NCBI GenBank assembly: GCA_040371205.1
Contig: AP031382.1
Location: 2,043,562 to 2,107,561, forward strand
Direction: 5' to 3'
Length of the DNA stretch: 64,000 nt
Origin: Rhodanobacter sp.
Lineage (GTDB): Bacteria > Pseudomonadota > Gammaproteobacteria > Xanthomonadales > Rhodanobacteraceae
Shown here: piece by piece, positions 49,703 through 64,000 of the stretch
How the letters are laid out: each line of letters starts with the position of its first letter
Position numbering within the stretch: the stretch's first letter is position 1
Program-made: the position numbers and the translations under genes
Notes under the pieces: model-generated
The model's input: the letters and a program-made list of their open reading frames with translations, nothing else
Database searches by the model: none
Told to the model about the DNA's origin: nothing

Positions 49703-50665
49703 TCAGTCGGGCAGCGTGCGCCGCATGCATTGTTCGTGCTTGTGCAAGGTGGTTGCGGGCAGGCGCTCGGCGAGGAAGTCCACCAGCGCGCGCACGCCCG
49801 GCAGCATGCCGCGGCGGCTGGGGTAGATGAAATGCATGGTGCCTTCCGGCGCGCTCCATTCGGGCAGCAGCACTTCCAGTTCGCCGCCGGTCACGGCCGG
49901 GGCGCAGACGAACTCCGGCAACAGCGCCACGCCAAGGCCGCGGCGGGCGGCTTCCAGCAGCACCGCGAAGTCGCCGCAGATCAACCGGGCATTCACTTCC
50001 ACGTTCACGCGTTCGCCCGCCGCGTCGAGCAGTTCCCAGGTTTGCGGGCCTTCGTGCTCCTGCATCGAGAGCGCGGGGATCTTCGCCAGGTCGGCGGGCT
50101 GTGCCGGCCGACCCGTCGCGTCGAGCAGCTTCGGACTGGCCACCGGCAGCACGCGCGACTGGCCGAAGCTGCGCACCACCATGTTGGCATCGGTGTCGAG
50201 CTTGCTGCGCACGCGGATCGCGAGATCGTAGCCTTCGCCGAGCAGATCCACTCGACGGTTGCTGGAAAGCACCCGCACCTGCAGCTTGGGGTATTTCGCC
50301 AGAAAGTCGGGCAACACGTGGGCCAGTACGGTCTGGGTAAGCGACACCGGGCAACTCAGCCGCACCACGCCGCGCGGCTCGGCACGCAGCTCGTCCACCG
50401 CGTCCTGCGCCGCGCGCGCCTCTTCCAGCACCGCGCGGCAATGCGCGTAGAAGCGCTCGCCGATCTCGGTGACCACGAAGCGGCGCGTGGTCCGCTGCAG
50501 CAGGCGCACGCCCAGGCGGTCCTCCAACTGCGCCACGCGCTTGCTGAGCCTGGACTTGGGCATGCCCAACGCGCGGCCCGCCGCGGAAAAACCGCCATGC
50601 TCGACCACTGCGGCGAAGAAATACAGGTCATTGAGATCCTGCAGCGTTCCACTCAACTGCGTCAT
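49703..50665 (-). CDS. LysR-family transcriptional regulator
   Basis: The protein has 320 residues. The winged helix-turn-helix is at about 10-60 (LNDLYFFAAVVEHGGFSAAG, then MPKSRLSKRVAQLEDRLGV). The effector domain is of the DsdC/PecT-like or CrgA group that often regulates quinone or aromatic detoxification genes, but the target is not clear. It is upstream of the aminotransferase gene in the same direction, 52 bp away, and could be transcribed with it or regulate it. Confidence 0.88.
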   Translation of the reverse strand: MTQLSGTLQDLNDLYFFAAVVEHGGFSAAGRALGMPKSRLSKRVAQLEDRLGVRLLQRTTRRFVVTEIGERFYAHCRAVLEEARAAQDAVDELRAEPRGVVRLSCPVSLTQTVLAHVLPDFLAKYPKLQVRVLSSNRRVDLLGEGYDLAIRVRSKLDTDANMVVRSFGQSRVLPVASPKLLDATGRPAQPADLAKIPALSMQEHEGPQTWELLDAAGERVNVEVNARLICGDFAVLLEAARRGLGVALLPEFVCAPAVTGGELEVLLPEWSAPEGTMHFIYPSRRGMLPGVRALVDFLAERLPATTLHKHEQCMRRTLPD

Positions 50666-50807
50666 GGTCGTTTCTCTATCCGAACAACAGTGGCGATCCC
50701 GTCGAGTCTATTGCCGGATTGTTCCAGATTCATCTAGCAAAGCGTCGATCAAGCCTCGATCCAGGCACCCCTGCCATCAGTCATGTTGCCAAGCGAGCAA
50801 ATTTCTC

Positions 50808-50868
50808 TTGACGGATCAAATCATGGTGTTATAGTTCACCACAACACCACTCAACGAGTTCACCGAAG
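50808..50868 (+). promoter_or_regulatory. Promoter and candidate operator of the GntR-ABC operon
   Basis: TTGACG (50808-50813), a 16-base spacer and TATAGT (50830-50835) form a strong sigma-70 promoter 43 bp upstream of the first gene. The inverted repeat GGTGTT/AACACC (50825-50830/about 50843-50848) overlaps the -10 region, and AGTTCACC is directly repeated (about 50833 and 50861). These are likely binding sites for the GntR-type repressor encoded just downstream. Confidence 0.6.
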
Positions 50869-50877
50869 GAGCTCACC

Positions 50878-51237
50878 ATGAACGCGAAACTCGACACCCA
50901 CCATGCGGCCGTCGCCACTCGCGACGCTTTCATCGACGCCCTGCTTCCCGCCCGGCGCTGGATCGCCTCAGCCGCCGCCGTAGTGATGACCGGCCTGACA
51001 CTGGCGGTGGTCAACCTGCCGGTGACCCGCACCGCCGAAGTCGCCTGGATCGACGGCCTCCGCGTGACCAACCTGGAGCCGGTCCAGGTCACCCCGACCG
51101 ATGCCGACATGAAGGCGGCCGCCCTGCTGGAGAACGCCGCGGTAGGCGTCGCCAACGGCGCAGCGGCGCAGTTCGGGGCACAGTTGGCCATGCCCTACTA
51201 TTCCTTCGGCACCACGAGCACCAGCAGCAAGGAATAA
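50878..51237 (+). CDS. Small single-pass membrane protein of the GntR operon
   Basis: The protein has 119 residues with GGAG at ideal spacing. One hydrophobic segment (about 31-49, SAAAVVMTGLTLAVVNLPV) anchors it in the inner membrane. The rest is polar with a short Ser/Thr tail and is probably periplasmic. No domain is recognised. It is first in the operon, before the GntR regulator and an ABC exporter, so it may be an accessory or sensor of that system. Confidence 0.75.
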   Translation: MNAKLDTHHAAVATRDAFIDALLPARRWIASAAAVVMTGLTLAVVNLPVTRTAEVAWIDGLRVTNLEPVQVTPTDADMKAAALLENAAVGVANGAAAQFGAQLAMPYYSFGTTSTSSKE

Positions 51238-51240
51238 TCC

Positions 51241-51615
51241 ATGACCATCACCTGGAACGACAGCATCCCGATCTACCGCCAACTGCACCAACGCGTGGTG
51301 GCGATGATCCTGGATGGCGCCTTGAACGAGGGCGATCCGCTGCCGTCGGTACGTCAGGTGGCCGCGGATTTCCAGATCAATCCGCTGACCGTGTCGAAGG
51401 CGTACCAGGAGCTGGTCGATGAACGCTTGGTTGAGAAACGGAGGGGCCTGGGCATGTTTGTGATCGAAGGTGCGCGCGAGGAACTGTTGAAATCCGAACG
51501 CGAGCGTTTCCTGCGCGAAGAGTGGCCCGCGCTGTATGCCCGCCTGCAGCGGCTGGGCCTGGATCTGAAGACCCTGCTGCGCGAAGCGCAGGCCGAGCCG
51601 GAGAAGCCCGCATGA
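51241..51615 (+). CDS. GntR/YtrA-family transcriptional regulator
   Basis: The protein has 124 residues. The winged helix-turn-helix spans about 8-74 (PIYRQLHQRVVAMILDG, then LPSVRQVAADFQINPLTVSKA). A short helical C-terminus, without a large effector domain, is typical of the YtrA subfamily, which represses ABC transporter operons. It lies in the operon it likely controls, and its stop overlaps the ATPase start (ATGA). Confidence 0.93.
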   Translation: MTITWNDSIPIYRQLHQRVVAMILDGALNEGDPLPSVRQVAADFQINPLTVSKAYQELVDERLVEKRRGLGMFVIEGAREELLKSERERFLREEWPALYARLQRLGLDLKTLLREAQAEPEKPA

Positions 51616-52481
51616 ATGCCCAAGCCAATGCCGTCGTCTCCGCCCGCGGCCTCAGCAAGCGCTACAAGAACGCCGCCGCGCTGGACAACGCGAGTTTCGA
51701 GATCCAGCCCGGCCGCATCGTGGGCCTGATCGGCCCGAACGGCGCCGGCAAGACCACCGCCCTGAAGGCCATCCTCGGCCTCACCGATTTCCAGGGCGAG
51801 CTCAGCGTGCTCGGTCTCGATCCGCGCAAGCAGCGCGGCAAGCTGATGGAGCAGGTCTGCTTCATCGCCGACGTGGCGGTGCTGCCGCGCTGGATCCGCG
51901 TGAGCGAGGCGGTCGATTTCGTCGCCAACACGCATCCGCGCTTCGACCGCAAGAAGTGCGAGGCCTTCCTTGCCCGCACCAAGCTCACGCCCGGCCTGCG
52001 CGTGAAGCAGATGTCCAAGGGCATGATCGTGCAGCTGCACCTGGCGCTGGTCATGGCCATCGACGCACGCCTGCTGGTGCTGGACGAACCCACGCTGGGC
52101 CTGGACATCCTCTACCGCAAGCAGTTCTACCAGAGCCTGCTGGAAGACTACTTCGACGAGAACAAGACCATCATCGTCACCACCCATCAGGTGGAGGAAG
52201 TCGAGCACATCCTTACCGACCTGATGTTCATCCGCGACGGAAGAATCGTGCTGGACGCCGACATGGAGGCCGTGGGCGAACGCTTCGCCGAGGTGATGGT
52301 GGGCGCCGAACGCGCCGCCGAAGCCCGCGCGCTGAAGCCGCTGGACGAGCGCCAGGTCTTCGGCAAGAGCATCTTCCTGTTCGACGGCGTGGCACGTGCG
52401 CAACTGGAGGCGCTCGGCGAAGTGCGCCGCCCCTCCGTCAGCGACCTGTTCGTCGCCACCATGAAAGGAACCTACGCATGA
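51612..52481 (+). CDS. ABC transporter ATP-binding protein
   Basis: The protein has 289 residues from ATG 51612. Walker A is GPNGAGKTT (about 40-48) and Walker B is LLVLDEPTLGLD (about 152-163). The signature position reads QMSKGMIVQ instead of LSGGQ, so it is degenerate, as in many YtrB-like ATPases. The H-loop is VTTHQVEE. It couples with the permease that overlaps it by four bases. An efflux or cell-envelope stress role is likely from the YtrA context; the substrate is not predictable. Confidence 0.92.
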   Translation: MNAQANAVVSARGLSKRYKNAAALDNASFEIQPGRIVGLIGPNGAGKTTALKAILGLTDFQGELSVLGLDPRKQRGKLMEQVCFIADVAVLPRWIRVSEAVDFVANTHPRFDRKKCEAFLARTKLTPGLRVKQMSKGMIVQLHLALVMAIDARLLVLDEPTLGLDILYRKQFYQSLLEDYFDENKTIIVTTHQVEEVEHILTDLMFIRDGRIVLDADMEAVGERFAEVMVGAERAAEARALKPLDERQVFGKSIFLFDGVARAQLEALGEVRRPSVSDLFVATMKGTYA

Positions 52482-53434
52482 AAACCTTCTATTGGCTGGT
52501 GAAGCGCGAGTTCTGGGAACACCGCGGCGGCTTCCTGTGGACGCCGGTGATCGTCGGCGGCGTGTTCCTGCTGCTGAACCTGATGGGCATCGTCGCCGGC
52601 GAGGTCATCGGCGCGCAGCATGGCCTCCACTTCATGTTCAACGACAACAGCCTGCTCCATCACCCGCTGGACGCCGACGACCTCTCCAAGGCCGGCACCA
52701 TGATGGACCTGGTGATGTACTCGACCTCGTTCATCATCAGCATGGTGCTGGGCTTCGTGGTGTTCTTCTACTGCCTCGGCGCGCTGTACGACGACCGCCG
52801 CGACCGCAGCCTGCTGTTCTGGAAATCGCTGCCGCTGTCGGATACGGCCAGCGTGCTCTCCAAGGTGGTGGCGGGTACCGTGCTGGCACCGCTCATCGCC
52901 GCAGTCTGCGGCGTGGTCACCGGTATCGCGATGTTGCTGCTGTTCGCCATCACCCTGTCCTTCCACGGTGTGAACGTGTGGCATCTGCTGGCCTACGCGC
53001 ATCCGTTCCAGGTGATTGCCAACCTCGTCGGTGCCATCCCCCTGTATGCGCTGTGGGCCTTGCCGGCCACCGGCTGGCTGCTGCTCTGTTCCGCCTGGGC
53101 GCGCAGCAAGCCGTTCCTGTGGGCCGCGGTACTGCCGGTGGCGGTAGGCCTGATGCTCGGCTGGTTCAACCTGATCGGCACGAACATCGCCGGCGGCAGC
53201 TGGTACTGGAAAGACGTGGTCGCCCGCATCTTGTTCAGCGTGTTCCCCGGCAGCTGGCTGGGAGCAGGCAACTACCAAGGCGTGAGCAGCGGCGCGGAAC
53301 ACTCGCTGGATGCGCTGAACCTCGCCAACATCTACAGCGTCATGGCCTCGCCCAGCTTCTGGATCGGCGCCATCGCAGGTCTGGCCATGCTGGCCGGCGC
53401 CATCTGGCTGCGCCGCTGGCGCGACGACACCTGA
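52478..53434 (+). CDS. ABC-2 type permease (YtrC/YtrD-like)
   Basis: The protein has 318 residues and overlaps the ATPase by ATGA. It has about six hydrophobic segments (around 22-42, 80-100, 130-160, 180-200, 205-225, 290-310). The soluble loop after the first helix (about 43-78) is short. It forms the membrane part of the transporter. The order GntR-ATPase-permease is the classic YtrA arrangement. Confidence 0.9.
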   Translation: MKTFYWLVKREFWEHRGGFLWTPVIVGGVFLLLNLMGIVAGEVIGAQHGLHFMFNDNSLLHHPLDADDLSKAGTMMDLVMYSTSFIISMVLGFVVFFYCLGALYDDRRDRSLLFWKSLPLSDTASVLSKVVAGTVLAPLIAAVCGVVTGIAMLLLFAITLSFHGVNVWHLLAYAHPFQVIANLVGAIPLYALWALPATGWLLLCSAWARSKPFLWAAVLPVAVGLMLGWFNLIGTNIAGGSWYWKDVVARILFSVFPGSWLGAGNYQGVSSGAEHSLDALNLANIYSVMASPSFWIGAIAGLAMLAGAIWLRRWRDDT

Positions 53435-53466
53435 TATTCCATCGAATCCAACGGGGAAACGACATC

Positions 53467-54177
53467 ATGAGAAGCATCGCGACCACCGGCAGCATCCTTG
53501 CACTGGCCCTGCTGCTGCCGCTGACGGCTTGCAGCCAATCGTCCGACGGCAACTCCAGCGACAACGTGGCGCAGGCCATGAAGGAAGTGCAAAAGCAGAC
53601 CTCGCCTTCGGTCATCGGCGCGGAAGTGCAGAAAGGCATCGACCAGGCCAAGCGTGAGCTGCGCACGCAGGACATCGACGTCAACGACGTGCATATCCAT
53701 GGCGACGGCAAGGACACCCACGACGACAGCGACAGCAAATTGCCCAAGGCCGTCATCACCCCGCAGGGCAATCTGGTGATCGCCGGCAAACCGGTGGACG
53801 CCACGCCGGAGCAGCATGCCCTGCTGGTGGACTATCGCCAGCAGATCATCGACATCGCCGACGCCGGCATGGACATCGGCGCCAGCGGTGCCGACCTGGG
53901 CGTGAGCGCGGCGAAGCAGGCCATCCTCGGCGCGTTCACCGGCAAGAGCGACAAGGAGATCGAGGCCAGCATCAAGCCGCAGACCGACAAGATCGAGGCC
54001 GCTGCCTTGCAGTTGTGCAAGCGCATGCCCGACCTGCTGGCCTCGCAACAGAAGCTCGCCGCCGCCATGCCCGCGTTCAAGCCCTACGCCACGATGAAGC
54101 AGAAAGACGTCGACGACTGCGGCAAGGACATCACCGACGGCAACGGCAAGAAGGGTGTCGCCGTGTTCTCCAACTGA
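53467..54177 (+). CDS. Lipoprotein, DUF2884 (YggN)-like
   Basis: The protein has 236 residues from ATG 53467. A lipoprotein signal ends in LPLTAC (Cys at about 22). The mature part includes the block LVIAGKPVDATPEQHALLVDYRQQI (about 101-125) that resembles the YggN/DUF2884 family, and an alpha-helical region after it. The upstream His/Asp-rich segment VHIHGDGKDTHDD (about 72-84) could bind metal. It follows the permease by 32 bp and is probably in the same operon. The function is unknown. Confidence 0.8.
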   Translation: MRSIATTGSILALALLLPLTACSQSSDGNSSDNVAQAMKEVQKQTSPSVIGAEVQKGIDQAKRELRTQDIDVNDVHIHGDGKDTHDDSDSKLPKAVITPQGNLVIAGKPVDATPEQHALLVDYRQQIIDIADAGMDIGASGADLGVSAAKQAILGAFTGKSDKEIEASIKPQTDKIEAAALQLCKRMPDLLASQQKLAAAMPAFKPYATMKQKDVDDCGKDITDGNGKKGVAVFSN

Positions 54178-54224
54178 TCCCGCTGCAGACGTCAGCGCCC
54201 CTTTCCAGACGCACAGGATTTGCC

Positions 54225-54749
54225 ATGAAAGCCATCGTCCGCCCGTTGTTCGCCGCTTCGCTGGCATGCACCCTCGCCGCCTGCCACGTACCCGACACCA
54301 CGATGGAAAACGGCGCCATCAGGCTCTACGGCGACGTGGTGACCCTGCACGTCGACGGCGCACCGGAGGCGGATATCGCCTCCGACGGCGGCTTCACCAT
54401 CGACGGCAAGGCCGTGGCCGTCACGCCGGCCGAACGCGGCCTGTTGGCGCAGTACAACCGCAGCGTGCGCGCCGTGCGTGAAACCGGACTGGCCATGGGC
54501 AAGGCCGGCATCGAGACGGCAGCCAGGGCCATCGCGGCGAAGGCTTCGTCCACACCCGACAAGGCCGATGCGACGGCCAAGACCGGCGCCGGACAATTGC
54601 AGAACCTCAGCCTGGACATCTGCAAGGACACCGCCGCCATCAGGACCGCGCAGGACCAGCTCGCGGCACAACTTGCGGTGTTCAAGCCATATGCGTCCAT
54701 TGTCGGCGCCGACGATGCATCGGATTGCATGAAGGACGCGAAAGACTGA
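54225..54749 (+). CDS. Lipoprotein paralogous to the preceding gene
   Basis: The protein has 174 residues from ATG 54225. A lipobox TLAAC (about 15-20) ends the signal peptide. The block GGFTIDGKAVAVTPAERGLLAQY (about 64-86) aligns with the corresponding part of the 53467-54177 protein, and both end with a conserved Cys and a FKPYA segment, so this is a shorter paralogue from tandem duplication. It lacks the His/Asp-rich stretch. It is transcribed with its neighbour. Confidence 0.8.
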   Translation: MKAIVRPLFAASLACTLAACHVPDTTMENGAIRLYGDVVTLHVDGAPEADIASDGGFTIDGKAVAVTPAERGLLAQYNRSVRAVRETGLAMGKAGIETAARAIAAKASSTPDKADATAKTGAGQLQNLSLDICKDTAAIRTAQDQLAAQLAVFKPYASIVGADDASDCMKDAKD

Positions 54750-57668
<2,919 letters not shown>

Positions 57669-57684
57669 TCGCGCGGTCGCTGCA

Positions 57685-57756
57685 CGGCGGTCATTCCGGC
57701 GTGGGCCGAAATGACCGCCGCAAACCCGACGGGCCGCGCATCTCCACGCGCGGCCC
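57685..57756. terminator. Two hairpins between convergent purB and gst
   Basis: CGGCGGTCATT/AATGACCGCCG (57685-57695/57710-57720, 11-bp arms, no mismatch) lies 17 bp after purB. GGGCCGCG/CGCGGCCC (57731-57738/57749-57756) lies just beyond the gst stop. Neither has a long T tract. Confidence 0.5.
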
Positions 57757-57764
57757 GTTGCGCA

Positions 57765-58385
57765 TCAGGCGTGGGCTTTCTTCACCAGCCCTTCCGCCTC
57801 CATCGCCTCGCGCACCGCCGGGCGCTCGCTCACGCGCTGCTGGAACGCCAGCAACGCCTGGAAGGCCGACAGATCCAGCTGCACGTGCTTCGCCCAGTTG
57901 GTCACGGTGAACAGGTAGGCGTCGGCCGCGGTGAACGTGTCGCCCAGCAGGAACGGCTGCTTTGCCAGCACGTTCTCGATGAATTGGTAGCGCTTGGCCA
58001 GATACTCCTTGCGCTCGGCACGTATGGTGTCGGGCGTATCGGGCTTGAACAGCGGGCTGTAGCTCTTGTGCAGTTCGGAGTTGATGTAGCCCAGCATCTC
58101 CTGCAGGTGGTAGCGCGGCAGCGTGCCGTTGGCGGGCGCAAGCTTGCTGGCAGGATTCTGGTCGGCCAGGTACTGCACGATGGCCGGGCCTTCGGTCAGC
58201 ACCTCGCCGCTGTCCAGCTCCAGCACCGGCACGTAGCCCTTGGGATTGACCAGCCAGAAATCCGCGCCGCTCTCGGTGCGCTTGGCCTTGCCGTCGACCT
58301 TTTCCAACTGCAGCTTGATGCCCGCCTCGAGCGCCACGATGTGCGGGGAAAGCGAGCAGGCGCCGGGGGAGTAGTAGAGCTTCAT
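57765..58385 (-). CDS. gst: Glutathione S-transferase
   Basis: The protein has 206 residues. The thioredoxin-fold N-terminus has the catalytic Tyr/Ser/Cys segment LYYSPGACSLSPH (about 3-15) of beta-class bacterial GST, and the cis-Pro loop GYVPVLEL (about 50-57) is present. The all-alpha C-terminal domain contains GDTFTAADAYLF (about 147-158). It conjugates or reduces electrophiles with glutathione. It is divergent from the HxlR-type regulator, with repeated GGTTACC sites between. Confidence 0.95.
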   Translation of the reverse strand: MKLYYSPGACSLSPHIVALEAGIKLQLEKVDGKAKRTESGADFWLVNPKGYVPVLELDSGEVLTEGPAIVQYLADQNPASKLAPANGTLPRYHLQEMLGYINSELHKSYSPLFKPDTPDTIRAERKEYLAKRYQFIENVLAKQPFLLGDTFTAADAYLFTVTNWAKHVQLDLSAFQALLAFQQRVSERPAVREAMEAEGLVKKAHA

Positions 58386-58468
58386 GCGATGACTCCTGGT
58401 GGGAAACGGGGAAACGGACGTGCGTCGCGCGAGGCCGCGCATCCGGACTGCGCATGCTACGCCCCCAT

Positions 58469-58531
58469 GGTTACCATTGGATACCATGTATCCAGCCGTC
58501 AGCCGCAGAATGCGGTAACCCCGCGGTTACC
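58469..58531. promoter_or_regulatory. Candidate HxlR operator with repeated GGTTACC sites
   Basis: GGTTACC (58469), GGATACC (58479), GTATCC (58488), GGTAACC (58514) and GGTTACC (58525) recur between the divergent gst and hxlR starts; the last two form an inverted repeat with a 4-base spacer. This is a likely autoregulatory and gst-controlling operator. Confidence 0.5.
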
Positions 58532-58555
58532 ACCGCGCCAACATCGAGCCATCCC

Positions 58556-58939
58556 ATGGGTCTACCCGTACGCAAGAGCAAGGTCATACCGCCGCCCGCC
58601 TGCCCGCTCACCGAAAGCCTGGCGCTGCTGCGCGGCGCCTGGGCGCCCAACGTGATCTGGTACCTCAGCGCCGAACCGCGCCGCTTCGGCGAGTTGCGCC
58701 ACGACATTCCGCGCATCTCCGCCCGAGTACTCAGCGCTCGCCTGCGCGAACTGGAATCGCGCGGCCTGGTGAGCCGCCACCTGCTCGACACCTCGCCGCC
58801 CTCTGCCGAATACGCGCTCACCGAGCTGGGCCGCGAACTGTTGCCCGCGATCAACGCGCTGGCGCGGGTGGGGCAAAAGTTGATTGCAGAATGGGATTCG
58901 CGGGCTTCGGTGGGGAAGAAGGCACGGGTGGTGGGGTGA
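58556..58939 (+). CDS. HxlR-family transcriptional regulator
   Basis: The protein has 127 residues from ATG 58556. The CPLTESLALLRGAWAPNVIW segment (about 16-35) is the HxlR signature, although the usual aromatic-Cys context is CPV/I, and the winged helix-turn-helix follows (ISARVLSARLRELESRGLV). HxlR members sense aldehydes or redox state, often via that N-terminal Cys. It is divergent from gst and probably controls it. Confidence 0.92.
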   Translation: MGLPVRKSKVIPPPACPLTESLALLRGAWAPNVIWYLSAEPRRFGELRHDIPRISARVLSARLRELESRGLVSRHLLDTSPPSAEYALTELGRELLPAINALARVGQKLIAEWDSRASVGKKARVVG

Positions 58940-58945
58940 TACAAC

Positions 58946-59050
58946 ATGCTTGCCCACAGAGCAGGTTCGTGGAACGATGCCAAAGCATTTGCTACATCGG
59001 TGACCGCTACAAAGGCAGGCTATGGGGCTAAGCTGCAGCAGCAAGCATAA
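58946..59050 (+). pseudogene. Short frame between hxlR and the AT-rich island, possible gene remnant
   Basis: A 34-codon frame (MLAHRAGSWNDAKAFATSV onward) begins 6 bp after hxlR. It looks protein-like but is far too short for a domain and lacks a ribosome site. It may be a remnant of a gene interrupted by the insertion of the island. Confidence is low. Confidence 0.2.
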
Positions 59051-59167
59051 ACTACCGATCTCATCCAGGCCTTAACAAAGATCAATACACTGATCCGACA
59101 AACCCAATATATCGAACCACGCCATAACTTAATTTCGCACTGAGCCAGATAACACAAGGCGACAAAA

Positions 59168-60706
59168 ATGTCTAAAGTAAATCTGGATGCATTAATTGTC
59201 AGAGAGGATTTCGAAGCATCCGACGTTCGAGACTATGGAAAGAAGAAAGACACTGCATCGATTGAAGACATGAAGTCCGACTCATTCTTTTTTTCCAATC
59301 TACGAAAACCTGATTTCCAGCGTGAAACAAACGAGTGGGATTCTCAGAAAATTGCATCCCTTGTGAAATCATTTATCGATGGCGACTTGATTCCATCAAT
59401 TATTCTATGGAGAAATTCCGCAGGGTATCTTTTTGTTATCGACGGAAGCCATAGACTAAGCGCTCTCGCTGCATGGATAAATAATGATTACGGAGACGGT
59501 GAGCAATCAAAGAAATTCTATGACGGATTAATTCCAGAAGAACAAATTTCGGCCGCAAATGAGGCGCGCCGTCTTGTAGAGAAAAATGTTGGGTCATACT
59601 CTGATTGTAAATTAGCACTAACGCACCCGGATAAAGTTAGACCTGAAATAGTGCAGTACGCAAAGAATCTTGGCGCATTATCGGTCCAACTTCAATGGGT
59701 GGAAGGCGATGCCGCAAAAGCCGAAAATTCGTTCTTCAAAATCAACCAACAAGCAGCACCAATTGACAAAACCGAACTCCGCTTACTCAAAGAGCGAACC
59801 AAGCCTTTCAGCATTGCCGCACGCGCCATCATACGAAGCGGCAAGGGGCACAAGTACTGGTCAAGATTCACCAATACTGTACAGGCCGAAATTCAATCTA
59901 ATGCGAAAGATATTAACGCAATTCTCTTTGCACCAAGCTTAAAAACCCCTATTCGAACTCTCGAACTGCCTCTTGCCGGAAAACTCTATTCCGCCGCAAC
60001 TTTACCACTTATAGTGGATATGATCGGCATAGTTTCTTCGAATCAAAATAAAGATGATGAATCAGGGGAAGAAACAATACTTGTACTCAAAGAAGTAAAA
60101 ACAGCCGCCCAGAAAATCAACAGCTCACACCCCGGCTCGCTTGGGCTGCACCCAGCTATATATTTTTACTCACAAGAAGGCCGTCACAAAAATTCATCAT
60201 TTCTTGCAATTACGGACTTTGTGAAGAGGCTGGAAACTAAAGCCCACAAAGATAGATTTATTAGAGTCCGCCCTGCCTTCGAATCATTTCTTGTGAATTA
60301 TGATTACGTACTTCAACAAATAAATAGAAAATATCGCATCGCTCAGGCAAGCTACCCGCACATATCAAAACTACTTTCGCTTATGATCGAAAAACTTGAC
60401 CAAGGAAAAGATATCCCGGAAGCAGTCGCGGAAACCCAAACAAATCCTGAGTTTGGATTTCTAACGCTAAATAACCAGGAGATCAGATCGGAAAACACCG
60501 GAAGAAAGTTTAATCGAGATGACAAGAGTTCGATTTTCCTCAAGGATGTTCTAGAAAAATCAAGCAAGTGCCCAATTTGTGGCGGGGCACTGCACATGAA
60601 TTCCATTTCGTTTGACCATAAAACTCCTCGAAGAGATGGCGGATCAGATTCATCTGATAATGGTCAAACAACTCATCCGTACTGCAACACTGGATACAAA
60701 TCATAA
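59168..60706 (+). CDS. DUF262-HNH nuclease-like protein on an AT-rich island
   Basis: The protein has 512 residues and its codon usage is visibly AT-rich, unlike every flanking gene. The N-terminal domain has the DUF262/ParB-like motifs: DFQRETNEWDSQKIASLVKS (about 49-68) and IDGSHRLSAL (about 91-100), matching the DGQxR nucleotide-handling motif. The middle (about 130-450) is helical and lysine-rich. The C-terminal 50 residues form an HNH nuclease: CPIC (468-471), DH (483-484), N498, H503 and CN (506-507). GmrSD and related defence proteins join DUF262 to a nuclease, so a DNA-degrading anti-phage role is likely. It is a lone gene, with no modification partner. Confidence 0.8.
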   Translation: MSKVNLDALIVREDFEASDVRDYGKKKDTASIEDMKSDSFFFSNLRKPDFQRETNEWDSQKIASLVKSFIDGDLIPSIILWRNSAGYLFVIDGSHRLSALAAWINNDYGDGEQSKKFYDGLIPEEQISAANEARRLVEKNVGSYSDCKLALTHPDKVRPEIVQYAKNLGALSVQLQWVEGDAAKAENSFFKINQQAAPIDKTELRLLKERTKPFSIAARAIIRSGKGHKYWSRFTNTVQAEIQSNAKDINAILFAPSLKTPIRTLELPLAGKLYSAATLPLIVDMIGIVSSNQNKDDESGEETILVLKEVKTAAQKINSSHPGSLGLHPAIYFYSQEGRHKNSSFLAITDFVKRLETKAHKDRFIRVRPAFESFLVNYDYVLQQINRKYRIAQASYPHISKLLSLMIEKLDQGKDIPEAVAETQTNPEFGFLTLNNQEIRSENTGRKFNRDDKSSIFLKDVLEKSSKCPICGGALHMNSISFDHKTPRRDGGSDSSDNGQTTHPYCNTGYKS

Positions 60707-60784
60707 CTACGCCCCGATAAGTCGCTTCAAGACCAGAGCTGCTTCGCAACCCTGGCAACTTCAGGCGCCAAATACCCCGCACCC

Positions 60785-61726
60785 TCACCCCACCTCATCC
60801 GACCCTTCATTCACCCCCTCGAACAGGAAGGTCGACAGGTAGCGCTCGCCGGTGTCCGGCAGCATGGCGAGCAGCACCGAGCCTTCGGGCGCGGCCTGGG
60901 CCACCTGCAGCGCAGCGGCCAGAGTGGCGCCGGAGGAAATGCCGGTGAAGATGCCTTCCTGCTGCGCCAGCGCGCGCGAGGTGTCGCGGGCCAGGATGTC
61001 GTCCACCGGCACCAGCTGGTCGACCACCTGGCGGTTGAGCACGGCGGGCACGAAGTCGGGGGTCCAGCCCTGGATCTTGTGCGGCTGCCACTCCTTGCCG
61101 CCGAGCAGCGAGGCACCCGCGGGCTCGGTGGCGATCACCTTCACTTCCGGCCGCGCCACCTTGAGCACTTCGCCCACGCCGGTGAGCGTGCCGCCGGTGC
61201 CCCAGCCGCTGACGAAGTAGTCGAGGCGGCGGCCGGCGAAGTCGCGCAGGATTTCCGGCGCGGTGGTCTGGCGGTGGTAGGCCGGGTTGGCCGGGTTCTC
61301 GAACTGGCTGGCCCAGAACCAGCCGTGTTTCTCCGCCAGTTCGCGCGCCTTTTCCACCATGCCGGTGCCGCGCGCGGCGGCGGGGGTGAGCAGCACCTTG
61401 CCGCCGTAGGCGCGGATCAGCTTGCGCCGCTCGACCGAGAAGGTCTCGCTCATCACCGCCACGAACGGATAGCCGCGCGCCGCGCACACCGCCGCCAGTG
61501 CCACGCCGGTGTTGCCCGAAGTGGCTTCGATCACGGTCTGCCCCGGCTTGAGCGCGCCGCGCTTCTCGGCGTCGAGGATGATGGCGAGCGCGAGGCGGTC
61601 CTTCACCGAGCCGGCGGGATTGAACGCCTCCACCTTCACGTACAGCTCGACGTGCTTCGGGGCAAGGCGGTGCAGGCGGACGATCGGGGTACCGCCGATG
61701 GTGTCGAGGATGCTGTCGTAGATCAT
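60785..61726 (-). CDS. cysK: Cysteine synthase A (O-acetylserine sulfhydrylase)
   Basis: The protein has 313 residues. PLP-Lys lies in NPAGSVKDRLALAI (about 36-49), TSGNTGVALA (about 69-78) binds the substrate, and GWGTGGTLTGVGEVLK (about 174-189) binds the phosphate of PLP. It makes cysteine from O-acetylserine and sulfide. The CysK/CysM distinction rests on overall resemblance. It is followed, on the same strand, by cysG upstream in the cluster, consistent with co-regulation by CysB. Confidence 0.95.
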   Translation of the reverse strand: MIYDSILDTIGGTPIVRLHRLAPKHVELYVKVEAFNPAGSVKDRLALAIILDAEKRGALKPGQTVIEATSGNTGVALAAVCAARGYPFVAVMSETFSVERRKLIRAYGGKVLLTPAAARGTGMVEKARELAEKHGWFWASQFENPANPAYHRQTTAPEILRDFAGRRLDYFVSGWGTGGTLTGVGEVLKVARPEVKVIATEPAGASLLGGKEWQPHKIQGWTPDFVPAVLNRQVVDQLVPVDDILARDTSRALAQQEGIFTGISSGATLAAALQVAQAAPEGSVLLAMLPDTGERYLSTFLFEGVNEGSDEVG

Positions 61727-61784
61727 GGTGGGGCTCCGGATGATGGTCGCACGCGATGATGCGCGCGGCGATGCAAGGTTTTCG

Positions 61785-63254
61785 TCAAGCGCGGCGGCGG
61801 ACGGGTTCGCGGGCGACCTGCGCGGTGCGTGCCGGACGCAGGCGCGGCGCTGCCGCGGCCGCCTCGCCCAGCGGGGGCGCGCCGAACCAGGCCAGGCGGC
61901 CGGCCAGTCCAGCCACTTCGCCGAGGATCAGCAGCGCGGGCGAACGCACCGCATGCGCCGCCGCGCGTTCGGGCAGGTCGGCCAGCGTGCCGGTGACCAC
62001 GCGCTGGTTGGCGCGCGAGCCGTTTTCGACCAGGGCGAACGGGGTGGATGCCGCGCGCCCGTGCGCCAGCAGTTGCTTCCGCAGGTCGGCCAGCCCGGCC
62101 ACGCCCATGTACACCGCAAGGGTCTGGCGCTCCTGCGCCAGCGCCGACCAGTCCAGCGTGTCCAGCGATTCGCGGCAGTGCGCGGTGACGAAGCGCACCG
62201 ACTGCGCGTGGTCGCGATGGGTGAGCGGCACGCCGGCGTGCGCCGCGCAGGCCAGCGCGGCGGTGACGCCCGGCACCACTTCGTAGGGAATGCCATGGTC
62301 GCGCAGGAACTCCAGTTCCTCGCCGCCACGGCCGAACACGAAGGGGTCGCCGCCCTTCAGCCGCACCACGCGACGCCCCGCCCGCGCGTGCTCGAGCAAC
62401 AGCGCGTGGATCTCGTCCTGCGTGGCGTGATGGTTGCCGGCCTGCTTGCCCACCTCGATGCGTTCGGCATCGCGGCGCGCGAGATCCAGCACCTCGGCGC
62501 TCACCAGCCGGTCGTGCAGGATCACGTCGGCCTCGTTCAACGCGCGCAGGCCGCGCAGGGTGAGCAGGCCTGCGTCACCGGGGCCGGCACCCACCAGCAC
62601 CACCGACCCGGCCCGCGAGGCGGGCGCGTCGCGCAGCGCCTGTTCGGCGGCGGCGGCGGCCTGCTCCGGCCGCCCGGCGCGCACCAGTGCGGCCACCGGC
62701 CCGGTGAAGAGTTCCGTGTAGAAGCGTCGCCGCGCCGCGAGATCGGGATGGCGGCGCTGGATGCGCTTGCGCAGGCGCGCGGCCAGCTGGGCCAGCGGGC
62801 CCAGCGAATGATCGAGCAGGCTTTCCAGCCGCTCGCGCAACAGCCGCGCCAGCATCGGCGCCGCACCGCCGCTGGAAATCGCCAGCACCAGCGGCGCGCG
62901 GTCGATCACCGCAGGCACGTGGAAGCTGGACAATTCCGCATCGTCCACCACGTTGACGAACACGCGCCGCAGCCCGGCCAGCTCGGCGACGCGCGCGTTG
63001 AGCGCGCGGTCGTCCGTGGCGGCGATTACCAGCCATGCGTAGTCGAGCCAGGCCGGCGAAAACCCGCCGTCGCGGTGCGCGATGCGCCCCTGCCGCACCC
63101 AGCGCTGCAGCTGCGGCGTGAGGTCGGGCGCGCCCACCGTGACCTGCGCGCCCGCCGCCAGCAACGCCGCCGCCTTGCGTTCCGCCACGGCGCCGCCGCC
63201 CACCACCAACACGGCTCGACGGGAAAGGTCGGCGAAGATCGGGTACAGCTTCAT
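61785..63254 (-). CDS. cysG: Siroheme synthase CysG
   Basis: The protein has 489 residues from ATG 63254 ([20 protein letters not shown]); a longer start at 63272 exists. The N-terminal half is precorrin-2 dehydrogenase/ferrochelatase (NAD motif [13 protein letters not shown], about 18-30; about 1-205). The C-terminal half is uroporphyrinogen III methyltransferase ([17 protein letters not shown], about 222-238; [17 protein letters not shown], about 301-317). It makes siroheme, the cofactor of sulfite and nitrite reductases. A basic, alanine-rich tail of about 30 residues is an extension. Confidence 0.97.
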
Positions 63255-63642
63255 GCGCGGGTCTGGCACCATGGTCGTGGAGCCGCCGACGCTACGCAGC
63301 GCACGGCGCCGGCGGAAATGACTTTGGCGCCGGGGCATATGCCGACACGGCATGAAATGCGCGGAATGCCGAAGCCGGCGCCGAATCGGCGCGCCGCGCG
63401 CGCCCGACCTGCGCCCGGACAATCCCGCCCCCCCCCCCGCAGTAGAACGTCATTCATTGTTTAAACGTTTATACGTATAGACGTCCGAACAAAAAAGCAT
63501 ATAGACTCGGGCACATGGCCACCCTGCCCGCCACCCCAGGATCACCCCGCGCCCGCCGCCGGCGCGATGCGGCCAGTCGATGTATGCGCGCCAACCGCGC
63601 CATCTTCACCGCCTGCCCCACCGCCACGACACCTGGATCGCC
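63255..63642. promoter_or_regulatory. Divergent cysG-cysB control region with C11 tract and tandem ACGT boxes
   Basis: No gene of normal size lies here. An 11-C homopolymer is at 63428-63438. Three 8-bp boxes, AAACGTTT (63463-63470), ATACGTAT (63471-63478) and AGACGTCC (63479-63486), run head to tail without a gap. GGCATATGCC (63334-63343) is a separate palindrome nearer cysG. The ACGT boxes look like operator repeats of a tandem-binding repressor; MetJ boxes (AGACGTCT) have the same size and core. Confidence 0.55.
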
Positions 63643-63646
63643 ATGA
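63515..63646 (+). CDS. Possible 43-residue leader frame overlapping the cysB start
   Basis: A frame from ATG 63515 encodes 43 residues with two cysteines (near 23 and 34) and an Arg-rich stretch (PRARRRRDAA). Its stop overlaps the cysB start in ATGA. No ribosome site is visible and a chance frame of this length is common in GC-rich DNA, so it is a weak candidate leader. Confidence 0.2.
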   Translation: MATLPATPGSPRARRRRDAASRCMRANRAIFTACPTATTPGSP

Positions 63647-64000
63647 CCCTCACCCAACTCCGCTACCTGGTCGCCATCGCCGATTGCCGCCTCAACATCA
63701 CCGCCGCCGCCGAGCGCGTGCACGCCACCCAGCCCGGCGTGAGCAAGCAGCTCAAGCAGCTGGAGGACGAACTCGGCCTGCTGCTGTTCGTCCGCAAGGG
63801 CAAGAGCCTGGATTCGATCACCGACGCCGGCGTGCGGGTGATCGAGCGCGCACGCATCATCCTGGCCGAGGCGCTGAACATCCGCTCGATCGCCGCCAAC
63901 CTGCGCAACGAGGCGCACGGCGAGCTGCGCATCGCCACCACCCACACGCAGGCGCGCTTCGCCCTGCCCGCCTCGATCGCCGCATTGAACCGCAGTTACC
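63643..64000 (+). CDS. cysB: LysR-family regulator CysB, N-terminal part (truncated by window end)
   Basis: 119 codons are visible from ATG 63643. The DNA-binding domain (TQLRYLVAIADCRLNITAAA, then HATQPGVSKQLKQLEDELGL) and the effector-domain opening LRIATTHTQARFALP are the CysB signature and match E. coli CysB closely. It activates sulfate and cysteine assimilation genes in response to N-acetylserine. It is divergent from cysG, which with cysK is likely its target. The C-terminal part lies outside the window. Confidence 0.93.
   Translation, partial: MTLTQLRYLVAIADCRLNITAAAERVHATQPGVSKQLKQLEDELGLLLFVRKGKSLDSITDAGVRVIERARIILAEALNIRSIAANLRNEAHGELRIATTHTQARFALPASIAALNRSY

Follow-up and report, generated by a model that had tools for sequence, protein, structure and literature searches.

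We analyzed a 64,000-nucleotide stretch of Rhodanobacter sp. DNA (contig AP031382.1, positions 2,043,562 to 2,107,561; hereafter the window), in which a lone gene at 59168–60706 encodes a 512-residue protein with an N-terminal DUF262 domain and a C-terminal HNH nuclease domain. The gene is foreign to its host genome, and its family is compact, rare, and scattered over Bacteria and Archaea. We hold with moderate confidence that the protein is a horizontally mobile, single-gene, nucleotide-gated restriction nuclease that would act against phages or plasmids in the manner of GmrSD, BrxU, SspE, and DndI. An earlier note, made from the sequence alone, had proposed a distinct single-gene anti-phage system. 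That it is a single gene of foreign origin whose relatives ride on mobile elements stands, but its architecture has already been catalogued (PMC12373910). The gene is a useful lead and not a new class of immunity.

Domains, motifs, and family of the DUF262-HNH protein

The gene is an intact open reading frame (ORF) with an ATG start and no internal stop. Its product matches GmrSD_N/DUF262 (PF03235, expect value (E) 2.9e-14) over residues 45–205 and HNH (PF01844, E 2.1e-7) over residues 468–509, both above the Pfam cut-off, and gives no match to DUF1524 (PF07510) up to E 10. Between the two domains, Pfam at E values up to 10 gives a single match, to T2SSF and below threshold, so the long helical middle without a recognized domain described in the earlier note is borne out. 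The sole NCBIfam match is a sub-threshold one to IscB on the HNH part, and up to E 10 neither the Pfam nor the NCBIfam matches include a helix-turn-helix family. The family phrog_29172 of PHROG, whose function is unknown, spans residues 4–511 at E 2.4e-129, and because it matches nearly the full length at this value, chance is excluded. PADLOC (2.0.0) gave no full-length model for this protein; its NsnA (E 1.6e-8, residues 47–108) and PD-T4-2_A (E 0.0019, residues 47–106) models match over the DUF262 core only, about 60 of their 385 and 363 positions.

One scan of a genome contig collection yielded 48 related loci, from which we dropped 12 broken or cut members and aligned the 36 complete ones with the window protein (37 rows). 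Complete members are 512–553 residues long, identity to the window protein is 37–64% among the aligned members, and each of the two domains is found at E<=0.001 in 35 of the 37. The alignment has 64 invariant columns, which include Q51, R52, D92, G93, H95, and R96 of the QR and DGSHR motifs and C468, C471, H484, N498, H503, C506, and N507 of the HNH domain; D483 is conserved in at least 90% of members. All of the residues on which the earlier note had based a DUF262 domain and a complete HNH domain are therefore present. In the window protein the second motif reads VIDGSHR. It varies as DG[SA]HR within the 37 rows, is DGGHR in the copies from E. coli, phage KL3, and plasmid pENT01, and is DGGHR or DGAHR in more distant members. 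The usual motif of GmrSD proteins is DGQQR, in the form (I/V)DGQQR. By likeness to the DGQQR of GmrSD, SspE, and DndI, we take DGSHR as the putative nucleoside triphosphate (NTP) pocket motif.

Fourteen of the invariant residues lie in the middle region (residues 206–460), including R210, R219, G225, G227, W231, H328, Y332, R368, and E372, which would seem to exceed the needs of a mere spacer. Conserved patches of this region are R219–W231, S324–Y332, and R368–E372. An AlphaFold2 model built from the 37-row alignment has a mean predicted local distance difference test score (pLDDT) of 85.6 and a predicted TM-score (pTM) of 0.77, and its middle is helical. When this model was compared with the PDB by Foldseek, DndI (9jfl) came first (E 0.01, probability 0.87), followed by ParB proteins, with BrxU at rank 4 (E 0.098) and SspE at rank 12 (E 0.24); the HNH part weakly resembles the Gme HNH nicking enzyme 4h9d (E 1.1). 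Against viral models, DUF262/GmrSD_N proteins were prominent at the top, and six matches reached E<=0.001.

Judging from record titles, many of which denote metagenome bins, hosts of the family include Cyanobacteria, Bacteroidota, Bacillota, Pseudomonadota, candidate phyla, and Archaea, the last with Methanoperedens, Methanothrix, Woesearchaeota, and Pacearchaeota. In a 42-row tree the window protein forms a clade with those of a Desulfobulbaceae bin and Pseudomonas phage Pf8 (support 100/99). Phylum labels change 21 times over this tree (minimum 15; shuffled mean 25.5), a mixing that does not by itself prove transfer; to some extent the phyla also cluster, because a count that low arose in 0 of 200 shuffles. 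The gene was found in 4 of 197 sampled genomes of the host family (E 1e-5) and in 3 of 398 sampled genomes of the host phylum (E 1e-30), with the window's own counted in both. Carriers usually have one match (17 of 20), and one of the three with two has a split gene. Base composition was compared at 45 loci, left from 58 entries after removal of 7 with short genes or flanks, 4 minus-strand entries, and both copies of the window gene (L001 and L054). At 41 of these the AT content of the gene exceeds that of its flanks by more than 3 points, at 1 the GC content does so, and the mean difference is 9.1 points.

The hxlR–cysK junction and other genomic settings

In the window, the GC fraction of the gene is 0.422, compared with 0.659 over positions 50000–58900 and 0.715 over 60790–64000. 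The product of the gene to its left matches Pfam HxlR (E 9.9e-22), and that of the minus-strand gene to its right matches PALP (E 5.4e-72), to which cysteine synthases belong, and we read the gene as cysK-type. The earlier description of a lone gene of foreign composition between hxlR and cysK thus holds. A genome-wide profile search found a single PF03235 match in the window genome, which is this gene; the genome also encodes a single C5 cytosine methylase, at a distance of about 718 kb. We conclude that the DUF262-HNH gene is foreign to its host because it is AT-rich, because its site is nearly empty in a congener (G095), because it is rare in the host family, and because its nearest clade consists of the Desulfobulbaceae bin and phage Pf8.

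When 15 genomes of the genus were searched with hxlR and cysK, 8, including the window's, had both within about 2.5 kb on one contig. The gaps, measured from BLAST match ends, are 1845 (window), 60, 813, 835, 639, 350, 2314, and 346 bp, and two congeners (G174 and G165) are represented here by contigs that are short or split. The gap of about 60 bp in G095 shows that the island is absent in a relative, a comparison that the earlier note had suggested. Alignment with G069 and G095 places the island edges near 59.0 and 60.74 kb, and the window island has neither inverted repeats nor terminal direct repeats. What fills the junction differs from one congener to another. In G069 it encodes a DDE transposase and an AbiJ_NTD4 protein (E 3.2e-35), the latter matching PDC-S32, a PADLOC candidate, at E 2.9e-113. 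In G082 it encodes an ADP-ribosyltransferase of Tse2-like type (E 1.3e-10) and, as its neighbor, a Tsi2-like protein (E 2e-12), neither of which matches PADLOC, and an ORF resembling the Tsi2-like neighbor can be read from the sequence in G165 and G174. The ORFs at the junctions of G147 (220 residues, in AT-rich DNA) and G137 (176 residues) match no Pfam or PADLOC family. Because the contents differ in this way, the hxlR–cysK junction is an exchange spot for small cargo, partly of conflict type, without a visible integrase. It serves as an example of such exchange at one core site and is the freshest observation of this analysis. The copy in a further congener, G054, lies at a different site, about 0.5 kb from a C5 methylase (L051).

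Relatives of the protein are also carried by mobile elements. They occur in four phage records (two phages in two versions each), in 64 plasmid records, 58 of them from Acinetobacter (identity 22–24% for Acinetobacter among the matches listed), and at 21 loci on viral contigs. Phage Pf8 (MN710383.1, L084:8523-10061) carries a full-length homologue that is 64% identical, with its HNH residues conserved, at one end of the record. This copy is annotated as a ‘putative repressor C protein’, and because its product is a full-length DUF262-HNH homologue, the annotation is probably wrong. Since PADLOC gave no full-length model, Pfam covers the ends only, and the PHROG family is of unknown function, annotation pipelines may miss or misname other members as well. 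In Burkholderia phage KL3 the copy, gp44, comes after genes for an EcoRII methylase, Vsr, and the EcoRII nuclease. Three E. coli genomes were inspected. In two, the gene lies in a phage-tail region near ihfA, with a VgrG/Pvc8-family gene on one side and ogr on the other, and we read these regions as P2-like prophages. The third, E. coli H6 (NZ_CP010170.1, L131:5280-11430), has an integrase, the DUF262-HNH gene, and a few others flanked by two copies of a thiamine pyrophosphate (TPP) riboswitch segment (82 bp, 98.8% identity) that adjoin thiM, and this segment looks like the attachment site of an island. On a Burkholderia glumae plasmid the copy adjoins annotated DncV-like nucleotidyltransferase, ThiF-family, and Mov34 genes, which we read as an operon like those of cyclic oligonucleotide-based antiphage signaling systems (CBASS). 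A Pantoea plasmid copy, annotated as two pieces, lies among metabolic genes, and the copy on plasmid pENT01 is near a Tn3 transposase.

To search for partners, we clustered 628 neighboring ORFs of at least 70 residues from the 48 loci, naming the groups by eye. There is no widely shared partner gene among them: the biggest groups span 7 and 6 of the 48 loci and consist of GAF/phytochrome-like and kinase-like proteins, most of which are encoded at a distance of kilobases. Groups of 3–4 loci are mostly cyanobacterial or clostridial, together with a methylase shared by L016, L017, and L049 and an ABC-transporter-like group.

Two neighbors were noted in passing. Beside a 37%-identical homologue, a 282-residue ORF (L137:326-1174) that matches no Pfam family resembles a PADLOC TIR-effector in its C-terminal part (E 4.9e-12). 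On a viral contig, a 962-residue AAA_21 ATPase near the homologue (L101:2339-5224) resembles PADLOC Ppl (E 4.3e-31), and the phage context appears P2-like by eye.

Proposed mechanism and its alternatives

We propose that the ParB/Srx-like N-terminal domain would bind and hydrolyze nucleotide by means of its QR and DGSHR motifs, that this domain would sense incoming DNA together with the conserved helical middle, and that hydrolysis would switch the protein to a form whose C-terminal HNH domain can nick or cut the DNA so sensed. With DndI, BrxU, and SspE as models (PMC11662687, PMC10952713), DUF262 would be the NTPase switch and HNH the cutter. In DndI, the R87A change in DGQQR eliminated ATP hydrolysis and weakened phage resistance, and protection was abolished by N541A in the HNH motif (PMC11662687). 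The trigger may be a base modification that is absent from host DNA, as in type IV logic, which would be the simplest means of sparing that DNA because few copies have an adjacent methyltransferase. Phages with modified DNA would be the natural targets, perhaps along with plasmids, and the gene would spread alone or as the cargo of phages, islands, or plasmids. The domain order, the invariant motifs, the foreign origin, the lack of a widely shared partner, the single DUF262 gene, and the carriage of relatives on mobile elements are shown here; the modification, the cut, and the phage range we infer.

Several observations weigh against this reading. Dependence on modification is not secure, because methyltransferases adjoin some family copies and because the host itself has a C5 methylase. 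With that methylase, a trigger consisting of any 5-methylcytosine would endanger the host, so a 5-methylcytosine trigger would have to be context-specific. The family has DG[SAG]HR instead of DGQQR, so NTPase activity is something that we infer. The PDB fold matches are weak, with none at E<=0.001 and a TM-score on the query of 0.28 for the top one, and PDB sequence searches returned no solved GmrSD-type relative, their only matches being to HNH segments in a maturase and in a Cas9-like protein. Several cellular copies are solitary among core genes, at differing sites; guaA-, recA-, and uvrA-type neighbors were confirmed by Pfam for L028, L008, and L033, and others such as gltX, recG, and pgk were recognized by eye. 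The earlier note had raised the case of homologues confined to core contexts, which describes these cellular copies but not those on mobile elements.

Enrichment of defense genes around the family was likewise not demonstrated when PADLOC was run on 20 loci and on 20 control stretches from the same genomes. At E 1e-10, 105 families matched the 146 proteins within 4 kb of the gene and 44 matched the 122 control proteins, counts that are of families and not of genes, with a single SNF2 helicase at L003 alone giving 22 of the 105. The 20 loci were picked from the 48 for their long contigs, so mobile elements may be under-represented among them. PD-T4-6, mad2, mad6, MkoA, and C3a189 top both lists; Type I specificity subunits (two members), PDC-S13, PDC-S05, mad3, and mad8 appear only for the loci, among the 25 commonest families listed. 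A Pfam scan of the same 146 proteins gave mostly general families among the 25 listed. Some homologues in defense contexts, for which the earlier note had proposed to look, do exist beside CBASS-like, EcoRII, or methyltransferase genes.

A bolder form of the proposal would make the protein a self-contained restriction nuclease of both Bacteria and Archaea, whose middle would be a dedicated sensor of a DNA mark other than the glucosylated cytosines of GmrSD. Without partner, methyltransferase, or mobility gene, it would move singly into small core junctions, which would be hidden, integrase-free exchange spots for defense and toxin genes. We regard this combination as rather unlikely.

The protein might instead act chiefly against plasmids, as a resident nuclease by which plasmids entering the cell are damaged or become costly. 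This has been proposed for PFLU4242 of Pseudomonas fluorescens, loss of which relieves the cost of pQBR plasmids and induction of which, in a gacS deletion mutant, restores the cost only when plasmids are present (PMC8544851). The window gene is likewise a solitary chromosomal DUF262-nuclease gene, but PFLU4242 has a DUF1524 nuclease in place of the window-type HNH, and the family is itself carried by plasmids and phages. We consider this explanation unlikely.

We also find it improbable that the protein is the nuclease half of an ordinary restriction-modification system, in which a host methyltransferase, adjacent or elsewhere, would protect sites and the protein would cut unmodified DNA. A motif search combined with Pfam found methylase neighbors at L016, L017, L049, and L046, which belong to two archaeal bins, one candidate-phylum bin, and one Nitrospirae bin. 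At L016 (6401-7996) an N6_N4_Mtase gene ends 2 bp upstream of the gene, with related methylases near L017 and L049, and at L046 (1282-3024) an Eco57I-type methylase gene begins 34 bp downstream, so local restriction-modification pairing at these loci is possible. The C5 methylase near the G054 copy, the EcoRII restriction-modification genes adjoining KL3 gp44, the Dam-like or C5-like ORFs seen by eye near viral copies L098, L103, and L104, and the C5 methylase gene elsewhere in the window genome point the same way. However, these four are the only loci with a methylase neighbor among the 48, the methylases are of different families, and the window gene is flanked by hxlR- and cysK-type genes.

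A selfish homing-type endonuclease gene, inserting itself between core genes with no benefit to the host, would account for the HNH nuclease, for the solitary core-gene insertions without visible mobility genes, and for the distant phyla. Homing needs a fixed target, but close neighbors common to at least three loci occur only in cyanobacteria, in Clostridia, or with the L016/L017/L049 methylase. We rejected this explanation, as there is no shared insertion site outside these few lineages and there are no repeats at the island ends; the usual single copy per genome and the invariance of the ParB-like domain motifs also make it very improbable. Least probable of all is a role in phage regulation or superinfection immunity, which the Pf8 annotation would suggest and at which an XRE-type-repressor-like ORF seen by eye near viral copy L088 might hint, since the protein matches no helix-turn-helix family of Pfam or NCBIfam and the Pf8 copy keeps its HNH residues.

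Relation to known systems and feature coordinates

The preferred reading, a single-gene, nucleotide-gated restriction nuclease, places the protein beside several known systems. Type IV GmrSD enzymes, such as single-chain Eco94GmrSD and BrxU, also have an N-terminal DUF262 domain, a helical linker, and a C-terminal nuclease of His-Me/HNH type, and are often mobile. Compared with strict GmrSD (DUF262 with DUF1524), the window family has a PF01844 HNH domain, DG[SAG]HR for DGQQR, and a conserved middle. The unrecognized helical middle is ordinary in form, because helical linkers of 200–400 residues frequently join DUF262 and DUF1524 (PMC4619093). The statement in the earlier note that known DUF262 defense proteins use a DUF1524 nuclease is contradicted by PMC12373910, which describes 12 single-gene Enterobacteria systems with DUF262/ParB_n and either an HNH or a DUF1524 nuclease, an HNH-bearing GmrSD2 that is required for defense in a two-gene system, and five further groups with apparent anti-T-even activity. 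DUF262 and HNH in one gene are not new in kind, because such single-gene systems are listed there. The ParB_n + HNH GmrSD variants of Enterobacteria in the same paper (CLS_001-020, GmrSD-ECOR17) include the same single-gene architecture, with HNH or DUF1524, as a main form, and the window family, with its E. coli homologues WP_000146940.1 and WP_021293132.1, may be among them; GmrSD-ECOR17 needs a second DUF262 gene, whereas the window genome has a single one. In the literature as far as it was available to us, we found no published test of the family's function, and the 15 groups tested in PMC12373910 may include it. New in the present work, it seems, are the definition of the family, the DG[SAG]HR motif, the conserved middle, the range, and the exchange junction.

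SspE and DndI likewise fuse a DUF262 NTPase to an HNH-type nickase, and DndI is the first, if weak, Foldseek match, but both act with Ssp or Dnd modification genes. The window genome has no DndC (TIGR03183), which was above cut-off in 7 of 21 genomes searched, the window's own included, in a search of DndC and not of the Ssp families; on this ground we rejected a phosphorothioation partner of Dnd type. Acinetobacter loci of the bacteriophage exclusion (BREX) type hold genes that their authors term DUF262 domain-containing HNH endonucleases (PMC10117892), and prophage KKP modules have DUF262 and HNH genes among their neighbors (PMC11341870). PglZ (PF08665), the one BREX gene searched for, is present in 8 of 24 genomes searched and absent from the window genome, and we rejected a BREX association there. 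PFLU4242, already mentioned as a solitary chromosomal DUF262-nuclease, shows no detectable effect in cells that lack plasmids (PMC8544851).

Phage therapy, transformation, and the spread of plasmids are all limited by type IV-like nucleases. Most of the very diverse GmrSD superfamily is untested, and the window family is compact and single-gene, with a sequence that points to testable catalytic residues.

Table 1. Features of the DUF262-HNH gene and its surroundings, in positions of the window
Feature	Position	Strand	Evidence
DUF262-HNH gene, 512 residues, intact	59168..60706	+	ORF, Pfam, PHROG, GC contrast
GmrSD_N/DUF262 (ParB/Srx-like) domain, residues 45–205	59300..59782	+	Pfam; weak Foldseek neighbors DndI, ParB, BrxU, Noc, SspE
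QR motif, Q51 R52	59318..59323	+	invariant in 37 aligned members
DGSHR motif, residues 92–96	59441..59455	+	D92, G93, H95, R96 invariant
Helical middle, residues 206–460	59783..60547	+	no Pfam family above cut-off; 14 invariant residues
HNH nuclease domain, CxxC...HxxC, residues 468–509, extreme C-terminus	60569..60694	+	PF01844; invariant residues; weak Foldseek match 4h9d
AT-rich inserted island, approximate extent (edges uncertain by several tens of bases)	58990..60740	.	junction alignment with congeners G095 (about 60 bp gap) and G069
hxlR-type regulator, left border of variable junction	58454..58939	+	Pfam HxlR
cysK-type (PALP family) gene, right border	60785..61726	-	Pfam PALP
hxlR–cysK variable junction	58940-60784; L055, L057, L058, L059, L061, L138, L139		compared junctions

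A scan for promoters and terminators gave sites no more frequent than in shuffles. At the DNA level, 53 of 5426 E. coli genomes match the Enterobacter plasmid copy, all of them over less than 80% of the query.

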